This document shows, piece after piece, positions 2,962-42,838 of a stretch of DNA of 64,000 bases (its first letter is position 1; the number at the start of each line of letters is the position of its first letter). The stretch lies in the NCBI RefSeq assembly GCF_008180865.1, contig NZ_VTEX01000002.1:248001-312000 (forward strand), in the 5' to 3' direction. Made by a program: the position numbers and the translations under genes. The notes under the pieces were generated by a model that saw only the letters and a program-made list of their open reading frames with translations, ran no database searches and was not told the DNA's origin. The stretch is from Rossellomorea aquimaris. GTDB taxonomy: Bacteria > Bacillota > Bacilli > Bacillales > Bacillaceae_B.

Positions 2962-4248
2962 TTACCTATCTTTCCGTAGGAGATCCGCATATGTCTCCCG
3001 CTCAATCACGACCCGTGATTCCCCATCATGCACAAACACAACGGCAGGGCGGGGGATCCGGTTATAATTACTCGCCATCGAATACCCGTAAGCCCCTGTA
3101 CTGAACACCGCCAGTATATCACCGTAATTCGTCGGAGGAAGCATCAGGTCCCAAATCAGCATGTCACCGGATTCGCAACATTTCCCTGCAATACTCACAA
3201 GCTCGGTGCATTCCTCTTGTGGACGGTTGGCCAGGACCGCATGGTATTTCGCCTGATATAGGGCGGGGCGGATATTATCCGTCATCCCTCCGTCAATCGC
3301 GACATACGTACGCACATCCGGGATGATTTTCTTTGATCCCACTTTGTACAACGTCGTACCCGCTTCTGCAACCATACTTCGGCCCGGCTCCACCCATACT
3401 TCAGGAAGAGGATATTCATTCTTTGCAAAATAGTTCTTCACACTATCGGTAATAGATTTCACATAAATTGGAATCGGCAAGGGCTGGTCTTCTTCCGTAT
3501 ACCGGACACCAAATCCTCCGCCGATATTCAGGACCGGCATCGTCACATCATACTCGATCCGGATTTTTTGCAGGAAATCAGCCAGTACTTGAATCGCCTG
3601 ATCAAAACCTTCCCGTTCGAAAATCTGGGATCCAATATGTGAATGCAGCCCGAGTAATGAGAAGTACGGCTTGCGGAGAGCTAACTGAATCGCCGTATTC
3701 GCCTGTCCGTTGGAAATGCTGAATCCGAATTTCGAATCCTCCTGTCCCGTCGTGATGTACTCATGGGTGTGGGCTTCCACACCTGGCGTGACCCTGATCA
3801 GGATCTGAACCTTTTGCTCACGCTCCTTTGCCAGGTCGTGCAGCAGTTCAAGTTCAAGGAAACTATCGACGACAAAGCAGCCGATCTCAGCTTCAAGAGC
3901 CATGATGAGCTCCTCTTCCGACTTGTTGTTCCCGTGGAAATGAATGCGTTCAGCGGGAAATCCCGCCTCCAATGCCGTATACAATTCCCCTCCGGACACG
4001 ACATCCAAGGATAGTTCCTCCTGCTCTGCCAGGCGCACCATCTCTTTACATAGAAACGCTTTACTCGCATAAGCCACCTGGTACTGCAAACCACTTTCCA
4101 GGAATGCATTTCGGAACAATCGTGCATTTTCACGGATCATCCTTTCATCGTAGACCATTAAAGGCGTCCCATAGGTCTCCACCAACTCACCCGTGCTCAT
4201 TCCCCCGATTTCAAGATCTCCACGAACATTCACATCAACTGTACTCAT
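2962..4248 (-). CDS. lysA: Diaminopimelate decarboxylase
   Basis: Catalyses the PLP-dependent decarboxylation of meso-diaminopimelate to L-lysine, the last step of lysine synthesis. The 428-residue length is normal. The alanine-racemase-fold N-terminal barrel carries the PLP lysine in YASKAFLC (about residue 63), the glycine-rich phosphate-binding GGGFGVRYT, the VEPGRSMVAEAG motif, and the active-site cysteine in CESGDML from the partner-subunit side. A GGAGT ribosome binding site precedes the ATG at 4248. The gene is monocistronic between two terminators and its 5' leader is a lysine riboswitch, so excess lysine should shut it off by transcription termination. Confidence 0.95.
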   Translation of the reverse strand: MSTVDVNVRGDLEIGGMSTGELVETYGTPLMVYDERMIRENARLFRNAFLESGLQYQVAYASKAFLCKEMVRLAEQEELSLDVVSGGELYTALEAGFPAERIHFHGNNKSEEELIMALEAEIGCFVVDSFLELELLHDLAKEREQKVQILIRVTPGVEAHTHEYITTGQEDSKFGFSISNGQANTAIQLALRKPYFSLLGLHSHIGSQIFEREGFDQAIQVLADFLQKIRIEYDVTMPVLNIGGGFGVRYTEEDQPLPIPIYVKSITDSVKNYFAKNEYPLPEVWVEPGRSMVAEAGTTLYKVGSKKIIPDVRTYVAIDGGMTDNIRPALYQAKYHAVLANRPQEECTELVSIAGKCCESGDMLIWDLMLPPTNYGDILAVFSTGAYGYSMASNYNRIPRPAVVFVHDGESRVVIERETYADLLRKDR

Positions 4249-4660: not shown

Positions 4661-6061
4661 TTATTTCAGATTGATTTCGAACGGTTTCATTTTGACGGGC
4701 TTATCATTTCTGCTCAATGACTCGAATGGAACAATTAGAGAGTAGTCCTCAAGGTTGGCATCCTGAGGCAATGTAAACGTGGATTGATAACGGAGAGTAT
4801 CCTTATCCACTGTTTTCGTTGTAGCACTTCTGATCATATGATTCAGCATCTCATTATAATCTAGTTCATCCTTGGCATTTCTTTTAATATCTTTTGATGG
4901 GATCACCTGAACGAATTGAGCAAAATTCTCTAAAATATCATAATTGAATTGTTTTTCTTTGATGGCATCGATGGTGAAGTCCAGTGTCACCTTCCCTTTT
5001 ACGTTTTGGATATCTTGTATCGTGACCTGATAGCCAAAACGAGGGCTCTTCACCTGGAATGGAGGTGAATCCTTCAGTGAGATGATGCCGTCTTCATCTA
5101 CTCGCTCCATATCAGCTTGGACTTTCAGCGACTGTGCCTTATCACTGAGTTTACTAGTGAACAGCTCCCTGACAGTCTTTTGATAATCACCGTCAACTAC
5201 TTTGATATTCAGTGTCTCTGCACTGGACTTTGATAACCGGTTCCCTAAGTCATCAAACACGACCAGATTTAACGTATCCTTCTCAGACTTCACCGAATAT
5301 GTATACTCCAGTGTAGTCGTAGCTTTTCCTTTAGTGATGGATTTCACTTGCAGCTCAAATTCACCATGGGGCGATTCTGTCCTTACATCTGTGTGGATCG
5401 TTTCAGATGGAATCCTCTCAACCGGTACATCAAAGGTCCAAGTCCCGTTCACATCTGCCATATGGGTGAAAGTTAACGGAAGGGTGAAGTTTTCCGGCGG
5501 TTCTTTCCCGTCCCGGTAAAATTCGATCGAGCCTATGAACTCATCCCCGTCTTTTTTAAGACCCGAACTTCCCGACCCCCATTGATTCTGATCCTTCCCG
5601 TCGAAGAGGTGATAGCTGTAACCGCTCACCGGACGATTCCCATCGTCCATATGTTCAATGGAAAGGTCATCACCCTTCGCCTTGAAGGTGACCCCGATGA
5701 TGTTCCCGTCATAATACGTGCTTGTAATCGTTACATCGACACCGTTGGAAGTGGCGGCCTGATTAACTTCCGTCACTTTATCGCTGAAATAGAGTTCTTT
5801 CCCGACCTGGGAACCTACTTTTTCGTAAATGCCGCCCAGTACAGGCAGTTTGGCCAGTGCATTGTTCACAGGTGCGATTAGGAAGCCCGATACGAGTACC
5901 GTGGCGGCAGCAGCGGTGGTAAAGGCGGCACTTATTTTGGCCGTTTTTTTCCGGACTTTTTGTTTTCTACCTTTTTGTATTCCTGTTGAGATTGCCTCAA
6001 AAACCTCTTCTTTTGGTACCTCGATGCTGTTCATTTCTTCCTCAAACCATTTTTTGTCCAT
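4661..6061 (-). CDS. DUF4179 membrane anti-sigma-type protein
   Basis: 466 residues. A cytoplasmic N-terminal segment (about 1-42, rich in Lys/Glu) is followed by one membrane segment (about 43-67, with AAAATVLVSGFLIAPVNNA) and a large extracytoplasmic region. The LPVLGGIYEKVG stretch just after the membrane is typical of DUF4179 proteins. The start at 6061 overlaps the 3' end of the upstream ECF sigma gene by 20 bases, so the two are coupled, and by family precedent this protein should hold the sigma factor at the membrane and release it on an envelope signal. No ZAS zinc motif is visible in the cytoplasmic part, so the contact would be through the short basic N-terminus. The signal is unknown. 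Confidence 0.82.
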   Translation of the reverse strand: MDKKWFEEEMNSIEVPKEEVFEAISTGIQKGRKQKVRKKTAKISAAFTTAAAATVLVSGFLIAPVNNALAKLPVLGGIYEKVGSQVGKELYFSDKVTEVNQAATSNGVDVTITSTYYDGNIIGVTFKAKGDDLSIEHMDDGNRPVSGYSYHLFDGKDQNQWGSGSSGLKKDGDEFIGSIEFYRDGKEPPENFTLPLTFTHMADVNGTWTFDVPVERIPSETIHTDVRTESPHGEFELQVKSITKGKATTTLEYTYSVKSEKDTLNLVVFDDLGNRLSKSSAETLNIKVVDGDYQKTVRELFTSKLSDKAQSLKVQADMERVDEDGIISLKDSPPFQVKSPRFGYQVTIQDIQNVKGKVTLDFTIDAIKEKQFNYDILENFAQFVQVIPSKDIKRNAKDELDYNEMLNHMIRSATTKTVDKDTLRYQSTFTLPQDANLEDYSLIVPFESLSRNDKPVKMKPFEINLK

Positions 6062-6578
6062 ACTGATTCACTCCTTCCAATAGCATTCTCAATTCCAGCT
6101 TTGCCCGGTGAAGATACGTCTTGACCGTCCCTTCAGGCGTACCCATCGTATCGGCAATCATCTTGATCGACTGACCCTGGAAATAGAATAAGATAATAAC
6201 CGTTTGATAGTTTTGATTCAAAGACGCCATAGCTGTAATCAAGTCAATCCGCCCTTCTACATCCTGTTCTTCTGAGACGATGGCGGTATCGAGAAACTCA
6301 TCCCCTGTCAGCACGAGCCGGTTTTGTTTCTTTAGGATGCTGTATGCTGTATGTATCAGGATCTTGATTAGCCAGGTGCTGAAATACTCCGGATTCTTCA
6401 ACCGGGATATCGAGGTGAATGCTTTACAAACCGTTTCCTGCACAACATCCAGAGCATCCTCTTTATTTCTTACATATAGAAATGCCGTCCGGTATAACTT
6501 CTCACTTTCTGAGTGGATCAGCCTTTCGAATGCCTGTTCATTCCCCTTTATTGCTTTTTTTACAAGTTTTACATCCAT
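6042..6578 (-). CDS. ECF-type RNA polymerase sigma factor
   Basis: 178 residues, standard size for a group 4 sigma. Region 2 spans about residues 8-75 (EDALDVVQETVCKAF with STWLIKILIHTAY) and region 4 about 112-165, with the HTH seen in SIKMIADTMGTPEGTVKTYLHRAK. Related to the SigV/SigM/YlaC type but not assignable to one. A good AGGAGG ribosome binding site precedes the ATG. It is co-transcribed with the overlapping DUF4179 gene, which should restrain it. An ECF-like promoter lies just upstream (see 6601-6630), which suggests autoregulation. Confidence 0.9.
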   Translation of the reverse strand: MDVKLVKKAIKGNEQAFERLIHSESEKLYRTAFLYVRNKEDALDVVQETVCKAFTSISRLKNPEYFSTWLIKILIHTAYSILKKQNRLVLTGDEFLDTAIVSEEQDVEGRIDLITAMASLNQNYQTVIILFYFQGQSIKMIADTMGTPEGTVKTYLHRAKLELRMLLEGVNQYGQKMV

Positions 6579-6679: not shown

Positions 6680-6804
6680 TACGCATAAATGATGTAATGA
6701 GACGCATTTAATATAAAATTGACGCAATTATCTTTGATAATGATGCAATTCCCCTCGAAAATGACGCAATCATGGCCGATTTCGACGCAATTAAGTAAAT
6801 CGGA
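6680..6804. repeat. Array of six ~21-bp-spaced GACGCAATT cores
   Basis: Cores on the plus strand begin at 6680 (TACGCATAA), 6701 (GACGCATTT), 6721 (GACGCAATT), 6742 (GATGCAATT), 6763 (GACGCAATC) and 6784 (GACGCAATT). The spacings are 21, 20, 21, 21 and 21 bases. The 11-12 bases between cores are not conserved apart from AT-richness. The array fills the gap between the ECF sigma gene and the XRE-cupin gene. See the findings. Confidence 0.8.
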
Positions 6805-6900: not shown

Positions 6901-6932
6901 AAAAAAAGAAGCTTATCCCATCGATAAGCTTC
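6901..6932 (-). terminator. Terminator of the XRE-cupin gene
   Basis: Stem AAGCTTATC / GATAAGCTT followed on the minus strand by a run of seven T residues, overlapping the stop codon of the regulator gene. Confidence 0.85.
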
Positions 6933-7521
6933 AATCTGTCCGTCCCGTGTAAATCATCACAAAATGCAGGACTGCTTCCGTTGATTCCATATTGATGTAG
7001 CTGTGTACTTTATCACCATGGAACTTGATCGAGTCATACTGACCTAGGTCGAATTCCTCATCCTGCAACTTCACACGCACTCTTCCTTCCATGACCGTGA
7101 CAAATTCAATCACCCCGGGCTGGTGGGCATCGGCACTGTACTCACTGTCCGGTTTCAGGAAGGCCCTGTGGGTTTCCAATGAGCCATAGCCAGAGGAAGT
7201 AAACATCGGTTCCAAGGTCAAGGACTCATTGGCACTGATCACTTTGCTCCCTTCATTTTTCCGGGAGATCTGGACTTCCTGTTTTTCCACGAGGAGGGCG
7301 GATATCGGGATAGCTAAACCATTCGCTATTTTCCAGATGATCGTCAAAGACGGATTCGCTTCTCCCCTTTCGATCTTGCTAAGTGTCAAAGTACTGACTT
7401 CGGTCATGGCGGCGAGCTCCTGCAGGTTGAGCCCGCGCTCATGTCGTATATGTCTCAGTGTCATCCCGACGTGTTGCGCCAATTTTTCCGGGTCCTGCCA
7501 AGTCAAACCGTCATTGTTCAT
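6931..7521 (-). CDS. XRE-family transcriptional regulator with C-terminal cupin
   Basis: An N-terminal HTH_3 domain (about residues 15-75: LRHIRHERGLNLQELAAMTE, then LSKIERGEANPSL) is followed by a linker and a cupin_2 sensor domain (about 120-196: HQPGVIEFVTVMEGRVRV, GDKVHSYIN). The ATG at 7521 is chosen because GAAAGAGGTAGGAAT precedes it; an upstream in-frame extension has no ribosome binding site and looks like translated promoter. It is divergent from the EmrE-type exporter at 7605, so it most likely controls that exporter and itself from the shared 80-bp AT-rich gap. The ligand is not predictable from sequence. Confidence 0.88.
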   Translation of the reverse strand: MNNDGLTWQDPEKLAQHVGMTLRHIRHERGLNLQELAAMTEVSTLTLSKIERGEANPSLTIIWKIANGLAIPISALLVEKQEVQISRKNEGSKVISANESLTLEPMFTSSGYGSLETHRAFLKPDSEYSADAHQPGVIEFVTVMEGRVRVKLQDEEFDLGQYDSIKFHGDKVHSYINMESTEAVLHFVMIYTGRTD

Positions 7522-7604
7522 ATTCCTACCTCTTTCTATAGACAATGTATGTAAGTATATTATAATATATATAAAATAAACTATAGTATACAAAACGGAA
7601 AGGA

Positions 7605-9264: not shown

Positions 9265-9600
9265 CTTTCATCAACCTCTTATCGTATTTTTAACATTCTG
9301 AATTTTTATGTTAGTGGAAGCATTCTTGTATTCTTCCAATCTGCAAAAACGACCGCAACAATAGGCATAGCTGTAGATTGTATTTGGCTGTTTCCTCCTG
9401 CATGTGTATTTTCATATATTTTACACCCGGTATGAGGGGAAATCTATCTTTTTTTTGATAAAAAATAAGGGAGATGATGGGATTCAGGTTGATTGAAGGA
9501 TTGGCAGGGGCGCGGGGGCGTCACAGAAAAGACATGGATAGGTTTTATGCGTCAAACTCAGAAAAAAGACTGCCGAATCGAATTCGACAGCCCCTGAATT
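9265..9600. other. Intergenic region between prolyl hydroxylase and mtlD
   Basis: AT-rich upstream half, which probably holds the hydroxylase promoter, and a G-rich stretch near 9508-9522. Apart from the mtlD terminator at 9562-9593 I see no gene, repeat or RNA. Confidence 0.5.
9562..9593 (-). terminator. Terminator of the mannitol operon
   Basis: Minus-strand stem CTGTCGAAT / ATTCGGCAG with a 3-base loop followed by a run of six T residues, directly after mtlD. Confidence 0.88.
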
Positions 9601-32148: not shown

Positions 32149-32235
32149 AATCCGGCCGAAATACGCATTAATCCAGCCAAAATCCTGATAAATCCGGCCG
32201 TTTTTGAAAAAAACCCGGCCAATTTACATAAATTG
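32149..32235. repeat. Array of four 21-bp-spaced TCCGGCC cores
   Basis: Cores at 32151 (TCCGGCC), 32172 (TCCAGCC), 32193 (TCCGGCC) and 32214 (CCCGGCC), each preceded by AA/AAT, exactly 21 bases apart. The spacers are AT-rich and unrelated. It lies beyond the tauE terminator, in the 570-bp gap upstream of the M20 operon. Confidence 0.8.
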
Positions 32236-41995: not shown

Positions 41996-42159
41996 TATGT
42001 TCTCCTTTTTTTTAGAATCCGTCTCTATGCAATGTCGCATCAATGGCTTCGCTCATAAAACCCCAATTTATACATGAAATGGCCTCTCATAACAAAAAAG
42101 CGGACTTAGAGGGATGTATGAGTGAGCGGAAAGAAGTTTGTAGGTCGTTTGAGTATAGT

Positions 42160-42293
42160 TATGATCCAGTTTGAGCAACTTTTGATCCGGATTCGAGATT
42201 TATGGTCCGGAATCAGGATTTATGAACCGGTTTTCAATGTTTATGTTCCACATTTTTAATATATGAACATCTTGTCGAATATTCACTATCCAG
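42160..42293. repeat. Array of seven 20-21-bp-spaced ATGATCCGG-like cores
   Basis: Cores start at 42163 (GATCCAG), 42184 (GATCCGG), 42204 (GGTCCGG), 42224 (GAACCGG), 42245 (GTTCCAC), 42265 (GAACATC) and 42286 (CTATCCAG), spacings 21, 20, 20, 21, 20 and 21. Most are preceded by TTTAT or TAT. The later units are increasingly degenerate. It fills the gap between the lipoprotein gene and the kinase gene. Confidence 0.75.
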
Positions 42294-42316: not shown

Positions 42317-42838
42317 TTAAAAGCTGTCTTCATATATCACTGTGCCATCTTGATTGTAGATCGTTAGATGAAGTTCGTTGTGGATGGTGAGATCCCTTTT
42401 GTTTTTATCATAAAACAAGATCATTCCTCGTTTACCGTCTAATGGCTGAATGACCGTTGTGCCGTCATGAAACTCAACCTTCACTTCCTTCGCTTCGTCG
42501 AGGAGGCGCTCATCGTTTATGATCACATGGGCATGAGGCATTCCGGTATTGCTCAATCCCAGGTTCACTTTTTGATTGTCGTTCTCACTCCATCCGACAT
42601 AGCCTTCTACCAACTTATCACTCTCGTTGTTTTTGGAAAGATAATAGATTCCATTTTGAAGTAATAGGATGGTGACGTCCTCTGTTTCTTCGATAGTTAA
42701 GGGATGGATGTTATGTTCGCTGATAAAGTCGTCCACTTCCTGCCTGGAAGGAGAAGTATAATTGATGTGCTTTTCTTGATTAGAACACCCGATGACGGGA
42801 TAACCCACAAGTAAAAATGCTAGGAGCACTTTTCTCAT
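42317..42838 (-). CDS. Hypothetical lipoprotein
   Basis: 173 residues. A signal peptide (MRKVLLAFLLVGYPVIGC) ends in the lipobox VIGC. The mature part has two beta-rich halves with TIEETEDVTILLLQNGIYYL and KGMILFYDKNKRDLT-like segments; I do not recognise a family. The ATG overlaps the TGA of the upstream deoxyribosyltransferase-like gene (ATGA), so they form an operon. A solo palindrome arm abuts its stop. Confidence 0.72.
   Translation of the reverse strand: MRKVLLAFLLVGYPVIGCSNQEKHINYTSPSRQEVDDFISEHNIHPLTIEETEDVTILLLQNGIYYLSKNNESDKLVEGYVGWSENDNQKVNLGLSNTGMPHAHVIINDERLLDEAKEVKVEFHDGTTVIQPLDGKRGMILFYDKNKRDLTIHNELHLTIYNQDGTVIYEDSF

Follow-up and report, generated by a model that had tools for sequence, protein, structure and literature searches.

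Intergenic arrays of short core words, phased at two helical turns, in Rossellomorea aquimaris and related genomes

A six-unit array at positions 6680-6804 of the window, the 64,000-nucleotide stretch of Rossellomorea aquimaris DNA analysed here, belongs to a large population of intergenic direct-repeat arrays in which a short core word returns every 20-21 bp, in step with a one-turn alternation of AT and GC, and is conserved more strongly than the bases between cores. At least seven classes of core word are represented among the 67 arrays collected from four genus genomes. At a probability of about 0.5, they are best explained as phased, curvature-prone DNA elements along one face of which putative class-specific proteins would be assembled. 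Full-text searches of the open-licence literature found no named family for such arrays.

Arrays in the window and in other genomes

Array A1 (6680-6804, plus strand) was read directly and aligned in eight further species, and its class, GACGC/GCGTC, was found genome-wide. Its six cores, TACGCA at 6680, GACGCA at 6701 and 6721, GATGCA at 6742 and GACGCA at 6763 and 6784, are spaced 21-20-21-21-21 bp, just as an earlier, sequence-only reading had listed them. The two other arrays which that reading placed in the window are also present, with a period of about two turns: A2 (32149-32220, plus strand) consists of four AATCCGG(CC) cores spaced 21-21-21, and A3 (42159-42268, plus strand) of six TTATGATCC-like cores spaced 21-20-20-21-20, with an end word TGTCGAA on the same strand (42273-42279) that is identical in four species. 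In addition, a lone GACGC unit is found on the minus strand at 9541-9553, directly after a terminator-like hairpin.

A1 is located upstream of a gene for an ECF-type sigma factor (6042-6578, minus strand; Pfam Sigma70_r2 and Sigma70_r4_2) and is faced by the 3' end of a gene for a regulator with HTH_3 and Cupin_2 matches (6931-7551, minus strand; Pfam). None of the nine proteins encoded near the window arrays or the lone unit is a Rep or Par protein by Pfam, and the one protein among them without any match is the product of a small gene, 42317-42838, that adjoins A3. The window arrays are likewise without a match in Rfam 15 at gathering score; the sole match in the window is a lysine riboswitch elsewhere (RF00168, 4364-4540, minus strand, 130 bits), which lies upstream of a gene at 2962-4248.

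What had been taken for one of three arrays is instead one of 10 in 464 kb (the window and another 400 kb from its contig); the three sample a population that extends over the whole genome and would number about 100 by extrapolation. Within these 464 kb, a scan for chains of at least four near-identical 7-mers (one mismatch allowed) detected nine intergenic chains at spacings of 20-22 bp, and 0 or 1 chain for each of seven other spacing triplets. De novo scans yielded the 67 arrays from 1.72 Mb of sequence in four genus genomes, distributed as 10 in this genome (464 kb), 43 in G023 (700 kb), 13 in G007 (400 kb) and 1 in G001 (160 kb); a few are doubtful, including the one at 524522 of G023, which lies inside a coding-like repeat. 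The possibility, raised along with the sequence-only reading, that such arrays are as common in shuffled DNA is refuted, because real intergenic DNA from three genomes (717 segments, 202,851 bases) contains 45 arrays and ten dinucleotide shuffles combined contain none. The autocorrelation of intergenic 6-mers is highest at 20 bp, followed by 40-42 and 60-61 bp; an additional peak is seen at 126 bp. A gap of this genome (C10, 453427-453491) also carries a 19-bp tandem repeat, GGGGACGGTTCTGAAGCAC, whose units, at least three and near-identical, are not of the array type.

Three successive occurrences of GACGCA-N13-15 are found in 19 of 36 genus genomes, with a maximum of 110 matches in G023, and the reversed pattern in none of the 36. 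GACGC-class arrays are absent from 17 of these genomes, so that their function is either dispensable there or performed by other classes. One genome without them, G001, has a single array, with core AATGTGCGAA, in ~214 kb, and ~106 kb of another, G010, contain no array with a different core. Four of the six genomes searched contain the RGCGAWA class, and 4 of 36 genus genomes contain ATGATCCGG pairs; the controls, with a reversed pattern in the case of RGCGAWA, gave 0 both times. The matches listed by the array-pattern scan include records of Rossellomorea aquimaris, R. vietnamensis and two Bacillus sp.

At the level of the order, 23 of 397 genomes, spanning 11 of 135 genera, match. Judged by the matches listed, those of G066, G295 and G332 resemble plain tandem repeats, and those of G377, G256, G278 and G319 (one genus) and of G352 resemble the present type. 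In a 240-kb sample of G377 there is a single locus, whose long array runs to at least 33 units with an interruption by N; in this other genus, positions 231146-232397 of contig C2 comprise 33 plus 13 units of three alternating types, with a super-repeat of ~61 bp and the interruption by N. Two of three samples of G352 contain one array each, and 20-kb samples of G152, G121 and G260 contain none. In G152 a reversed control (ACGCAG, spaced 19-21) matches 63 times, possibly another core class.

A phage origin was considered and rejected: 43 viral stretches (L320-L362) match a tight GACGC pattern, and none was recognised as an array of the present kind. Thirty of the 43 share one nearly fixed three-unit sequence, GACGCAAAYGTGTTAATAAAAGACGCAAATTGTTRATAACAGACGCAAA, most of the others are near-identical tandem repeats, and one (L330) has varied spacers and lies inside an open frame. 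The GACGCAAAYGTGTTAATAAAAGACGCAAATTGTTRATAACAGACGCAAA repeat may serve as an origin or operator in one group of phages.

Unit geometry, core classes and placement

The layout of the unit can be written W5-S5-W5-N5, that is, a GC core with AT flanks and about five free bases. GC content is 0.62-0.86 in the five core bases, 0.09-0.27 in the adjoining five on each side and 0.33-0.46 in the middle between cores, and the share of the commonest base is 0.75-0.89 across core and flanks and 0.59-0.63 in the middle; the core values are inflated by centring on the GC-richest five bases and by the choice of arrays through repeated 7-mers, whereas simulation and random-spacer controls show a smaller effect on the AT flanks and the one-turn phase. 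Of the unrelated AT-rich spacers originally described, a free stretch of only ~5 bp is left, since the core is bordered on either side by ~5 bp that stay AT-rich.

The strongest alternation of AT and GC has a period of 10.25 bp, one helical turn, and not that of the 20.5-bp unit, power being 8.8 times background at the former and 4.5 times at the latter. One-turn power exceeds two-turn power in 53 of 67 arrays, against a fraction of 0.475 in simulated arrays, and real cores set on random intergenic spacers reach 1.12 in the one-turn phase control, as compared with 2.36 in the real arrays. The predicted end/contour ratio, calculated from wedge parameters, is 0.889 for the arrays, 0.948 for background and 0.954 for shuffled arrays.

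The core classes comprise GACGC/GCGTC (20 arrays), TTACGCAAT and ATGAKCC (11 each), RGCGA (9), TAATCCT/ATCATGCC (5), TTTTCAA (4) and TTATCGAC (2), with five arrays of other cores, GGCCGG among these. Over all intervals the mean spacing is 20.474 bp (n = 285), and the class means are 20.05 (RGCGA), 20.31, 20.33, 20.44, 20.47 (GACGC), 20.50 and 21.00 bp (TTACGCAAT), as obtained from a scan that admitted 20-22 bp only and excluded spacings below 20. Whereas 39 of 41 RGCGA intervals measure 20 bp, only 47 of 88 GACGC intervals do so, and all 42 of 42 TTACGCAAT intervals measure 21 bp, a uniformity that is not independent evidence because some TTACGCAAT arrays are local copies of one another (tandem copies in G023).

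Five or six units and a length of roughly 80-130 bp are usual, lenient counting giving four units in seven arrays, five in 20, six in 30, seven in five, eight in four and 15 in one; by eye, many arrays alternate two unit types. The word TGTCGAA, whose resemblance to the Spo0A box offers a lead, lies no more than 45 bp from the end of nine of ten ATGAKCC and TAATCCT arrays, and further out in the tenth, as against 0 of 44 other arrays; all six G007 arrays of the ATGAKCC/TAATCCT type show it by eye. Two neighbouring arrays differ in their cores, ATCAGCG in one and AACGGCG in the other, and this difference is kept in G007 as well as in this genome.

By gap type, 34 of the 67 arrays are in ++ gaps, 10 in --, 9 in +- and 9 in -+, with 5 unplaced, and each type's share of arrays is close to its share of intergenic length. 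The position of A1 upstream of the ECF sigma gene and between same-direction genes, to which the sequence-only reading had drawn attention, is incidental, and an insulating role at gene ends is not favoured by this want of a clear gap-type preference. Arrays lie at a median of 128 bp from the 3' ends of genes and 303 bp from their 5' ends, both values approximate because gene positions come from ORF lists without RNA genes. In G023, the minus strand carries every listed GACGC array in the left half of the chromosome, and the plus strand most of those in the right half (by eye, 100 of 110 matches listed), a bias possibly linked to replication or gene direction.

Conservation and turnover between species

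The A1 locus is matched over its full length in eight genomes, counting this one, and in a ninth only over its first part; in all nine species the array is kept, with four to six matched units. Six further partial matches to the locus have no array there, but their neighbouring gene order is altered. Pairwise differences among the nine species are 2-9% in cores and 27-40% in spacers. Three comparisons, in which cores were labelled from one sequence and differences counted among the others, gave 12/704 against 312/834, 59/640 against 322/813 and 63/872 against 295/1101 for core against spacer, and all nine sequences together 115/1544 in cores, 718/1981 in spacers and 1990/5496 in flanks. The rate of change is lowest at the core and climbs gradually to its peak 8-11 columns from it.

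For A3, the corresponding counts in four species are 20/288, 47/369 and 88/540 for core, spacer and flank. Seven arrays compared between this genome and G007 differ at 16/310 core, 35/361 spacer and 187/1618 flank positions (core-spacer Fisher p 0.029), with no difference between core and spacer in three of the seven pairs, namely A1, A2 and the array at C10:93629. The initial view that spacing is more conserved than sequence is not supported as worded, the core being strongly conserved within a class and changing only between classes.

Length changes involve whole units: A2 has four here and six at the corresponding site of G007, and the G007 site corresponding to 9541-9553 has six GACGC units. 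Because a more distant relative, G003, carries an array of the same kind at the same distance from its own A1 as that G007 array, the lone unit looks like the trace of a loss in this genome. G030 and G003 lack both A3 and the small gene 42317-42838 at the corresponding locus, as if the two had been gained or lost together. A mobile element with target duplication was rejected, as none of three length differences between this genome and G007 is, by eye, a clean insertion. Protein coding was also rejected, in line with the sequence-only reading: one of the six frames is open in 50 of 67 arrays, near the shuffle level of 0.70.

Interpretation and relation to known systems

Sequence-specific proteins lined up along one face of bendable DNA would need conserved words, a fixed phase, a class-dependent pitch and free middle bases, and the arrays combine all four. 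The original suggestion of a phased protein- or structure-binding array, presenting one face every two turns, is accordingly the best fit, backed by core conservation, class-dependent spacing and the one-turn AT/GC phase. Points against it are the three pairs with G007 whose cores and spacers do not differ, the 17 genus genomes that lack GACGC arrays and the even spread of arrays over gap types. The GC-rich core word would come back on the same helix face every two turns, while AT tracts every turn would give a stretch of DNA that is curved or wraps readily; each core class would have one or a few sequence-specific binding proteins, which would assemble side by side on the cores, and the resulting nucleoprotein patch may, at a guess, structure or insulate the chromosome between genes. 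A bolder and rather unlikely extension would regard the arrays as nucleosome-like positioning elements throughout the chromosome, in which one scaffold, often of six units, with AT tracts at each turn and a core word at every second turn, accepts interchangeable core words and each class has its own putative coating or wrapping protein, so that several address systems would operate in parallel in one genome. If proteins coat the arrays, these would constitute a large unnamed layer of chromosome architecture in Bacillaceae, as well as a natural experiment in which the same geometry carries different words and differs in its presence between close species. Bait sequences for finding the binding proteins follow directly from the phase and the words.

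Much of the turnover would also be expected of host-neutral or selfish interspersed repeats that, once seeded by some process, gain and lose whole units and survive in gaps in which they are nearly harmless, an unlikely but serious alternative. Array numbers that differ strongly between close species, whole-unit length changes, local tandem copies in G023 and the missing A3 of G030 and G003 all agree with such an origin, which explains changes in copy number but not the several-fold slower change of A1 cores relative to spacers; homogenisation by unit exchange would take the spacers along with the cores, and the three length differences examined include no clean insertion with target duplication. 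Wrapping sites for gyrase akin to BIME-2, whose AT/GC phase would guide DNA round the enzyme behind transcribed units, are the other main alternative but improbable. In E. coli, GC content varies with the helix over the 130 bp of the gyrase motif, and gyrase cleavage sites are overrepresented in BIME-2 and behind rRNA operons (PMC6379681). Arrays resemble this motif in length (~120-130 bp) and in one-turn GC variation, and in the G023 sample a GACGC array lies 425-446 bp downstream of three of five 5S ends, the other two having a TTTTCAA array at 1113 bp and none within 3 kb; in this genome, one GACGC array is beside a 5S end at a contig end. However, the motif has a period of 10.75 bp in two arms that flank a 36-bp centre, and it lacks fixed words (PMC6379681), whereas the arrays average 10.24 bp per turn and are continuous, with no central gap. 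Neither their exact core words nor their class-dependent spacing would be explained by gyrase.

Operators for regulators that bind direct repeats head to tail are quite improbable too, even with BldC as a precedent: it assembles head to tail, in helical phase and variable number, on AT-rich direct repeats about a turn apart, bends DNA and has widespread relatives (PMC5859096), but its sites lie in promoters and have no GC core every second turn. The arrays are, on the approximate gene calls, farther from gene 5' ends (303 bp) than from 3' ends (128 bp), have many unrelated neighbour genes and also occur behind rRNA operons. The ram site of RacA is a GC-rich inverted repeat whose word contains TGACGC, whereas the arrays are direct repeats. 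RacA binds as a symmetric dimer without global bending (PMC5859096), and its sites are dense near the origin and scattered elsewhere (PMC6593407), a distribution echoed by G023, in which 20 of 26 listed GACGC clusters occupy the origin-proximal half (by eye, 100 of 110 matches listed; numbering starts at a DnaA-like ORF, by inspection). A RacA-type centromere-like site is nonetheless very unlikely for the GACGC class, as the same count is mixed elsewhere (G007 9/12, G030 7/14, G019 5/6, G033 3/6; by eye, origin position assumed) and the other classes would be left without explanation. Least probable of all are RNA elements or hairpins formed from transcribed arrays. Some spacers are palindromic by eye, and the TATGAKC group reaches z 3.6 in a pairing test of spacer halves against re-paired halves, but the other five of the six spacer groups remain at z 2.3 or below (best over axes) and mean fold z is 0.25 on one strand and 0.04 on the other; with no general pairing signal and an RNA fold z of about 0, hairpins of RNA or single-stranded DNA were rejected.

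Several known systems share individual features with the phased arrays. REP and BIME elements, some of them tied to gyrase, also occur as many interspersed intergenic copies (here 67 arrays in 1.72 Mb), but REPs are palindromes in alternating orientation, unlike these direct repeats with several core words and no supported hairpin. Plasmid iterons and ParR-type centromeres are, like the arrays, direct repeats about two turns apart, and are bound cooperatively; they are located next to a rep or par gene of a single replicon, whereas the arrays occupy many chromosomal gaps, with no rep or par gene beside those in the window. CRISPR loci, which the sequence-only reading had rightly set aside, have near-identical repeats longer than 20 bp with unique spacers, whereas the whole unit here is 20-21 bp and only core and flanks recur. 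The nearest printed case found among open-licence papers is that of the TAACTGA repeats of Beggiatoaceae (PMC4679880), which consist of one heptamer and lie mostly right upstream of start codons; in contrast, the present arrays employ several words at a spacing of 20-21 bp and are mostly away from start codons, at a median of 303 bp from gene 5' ends.
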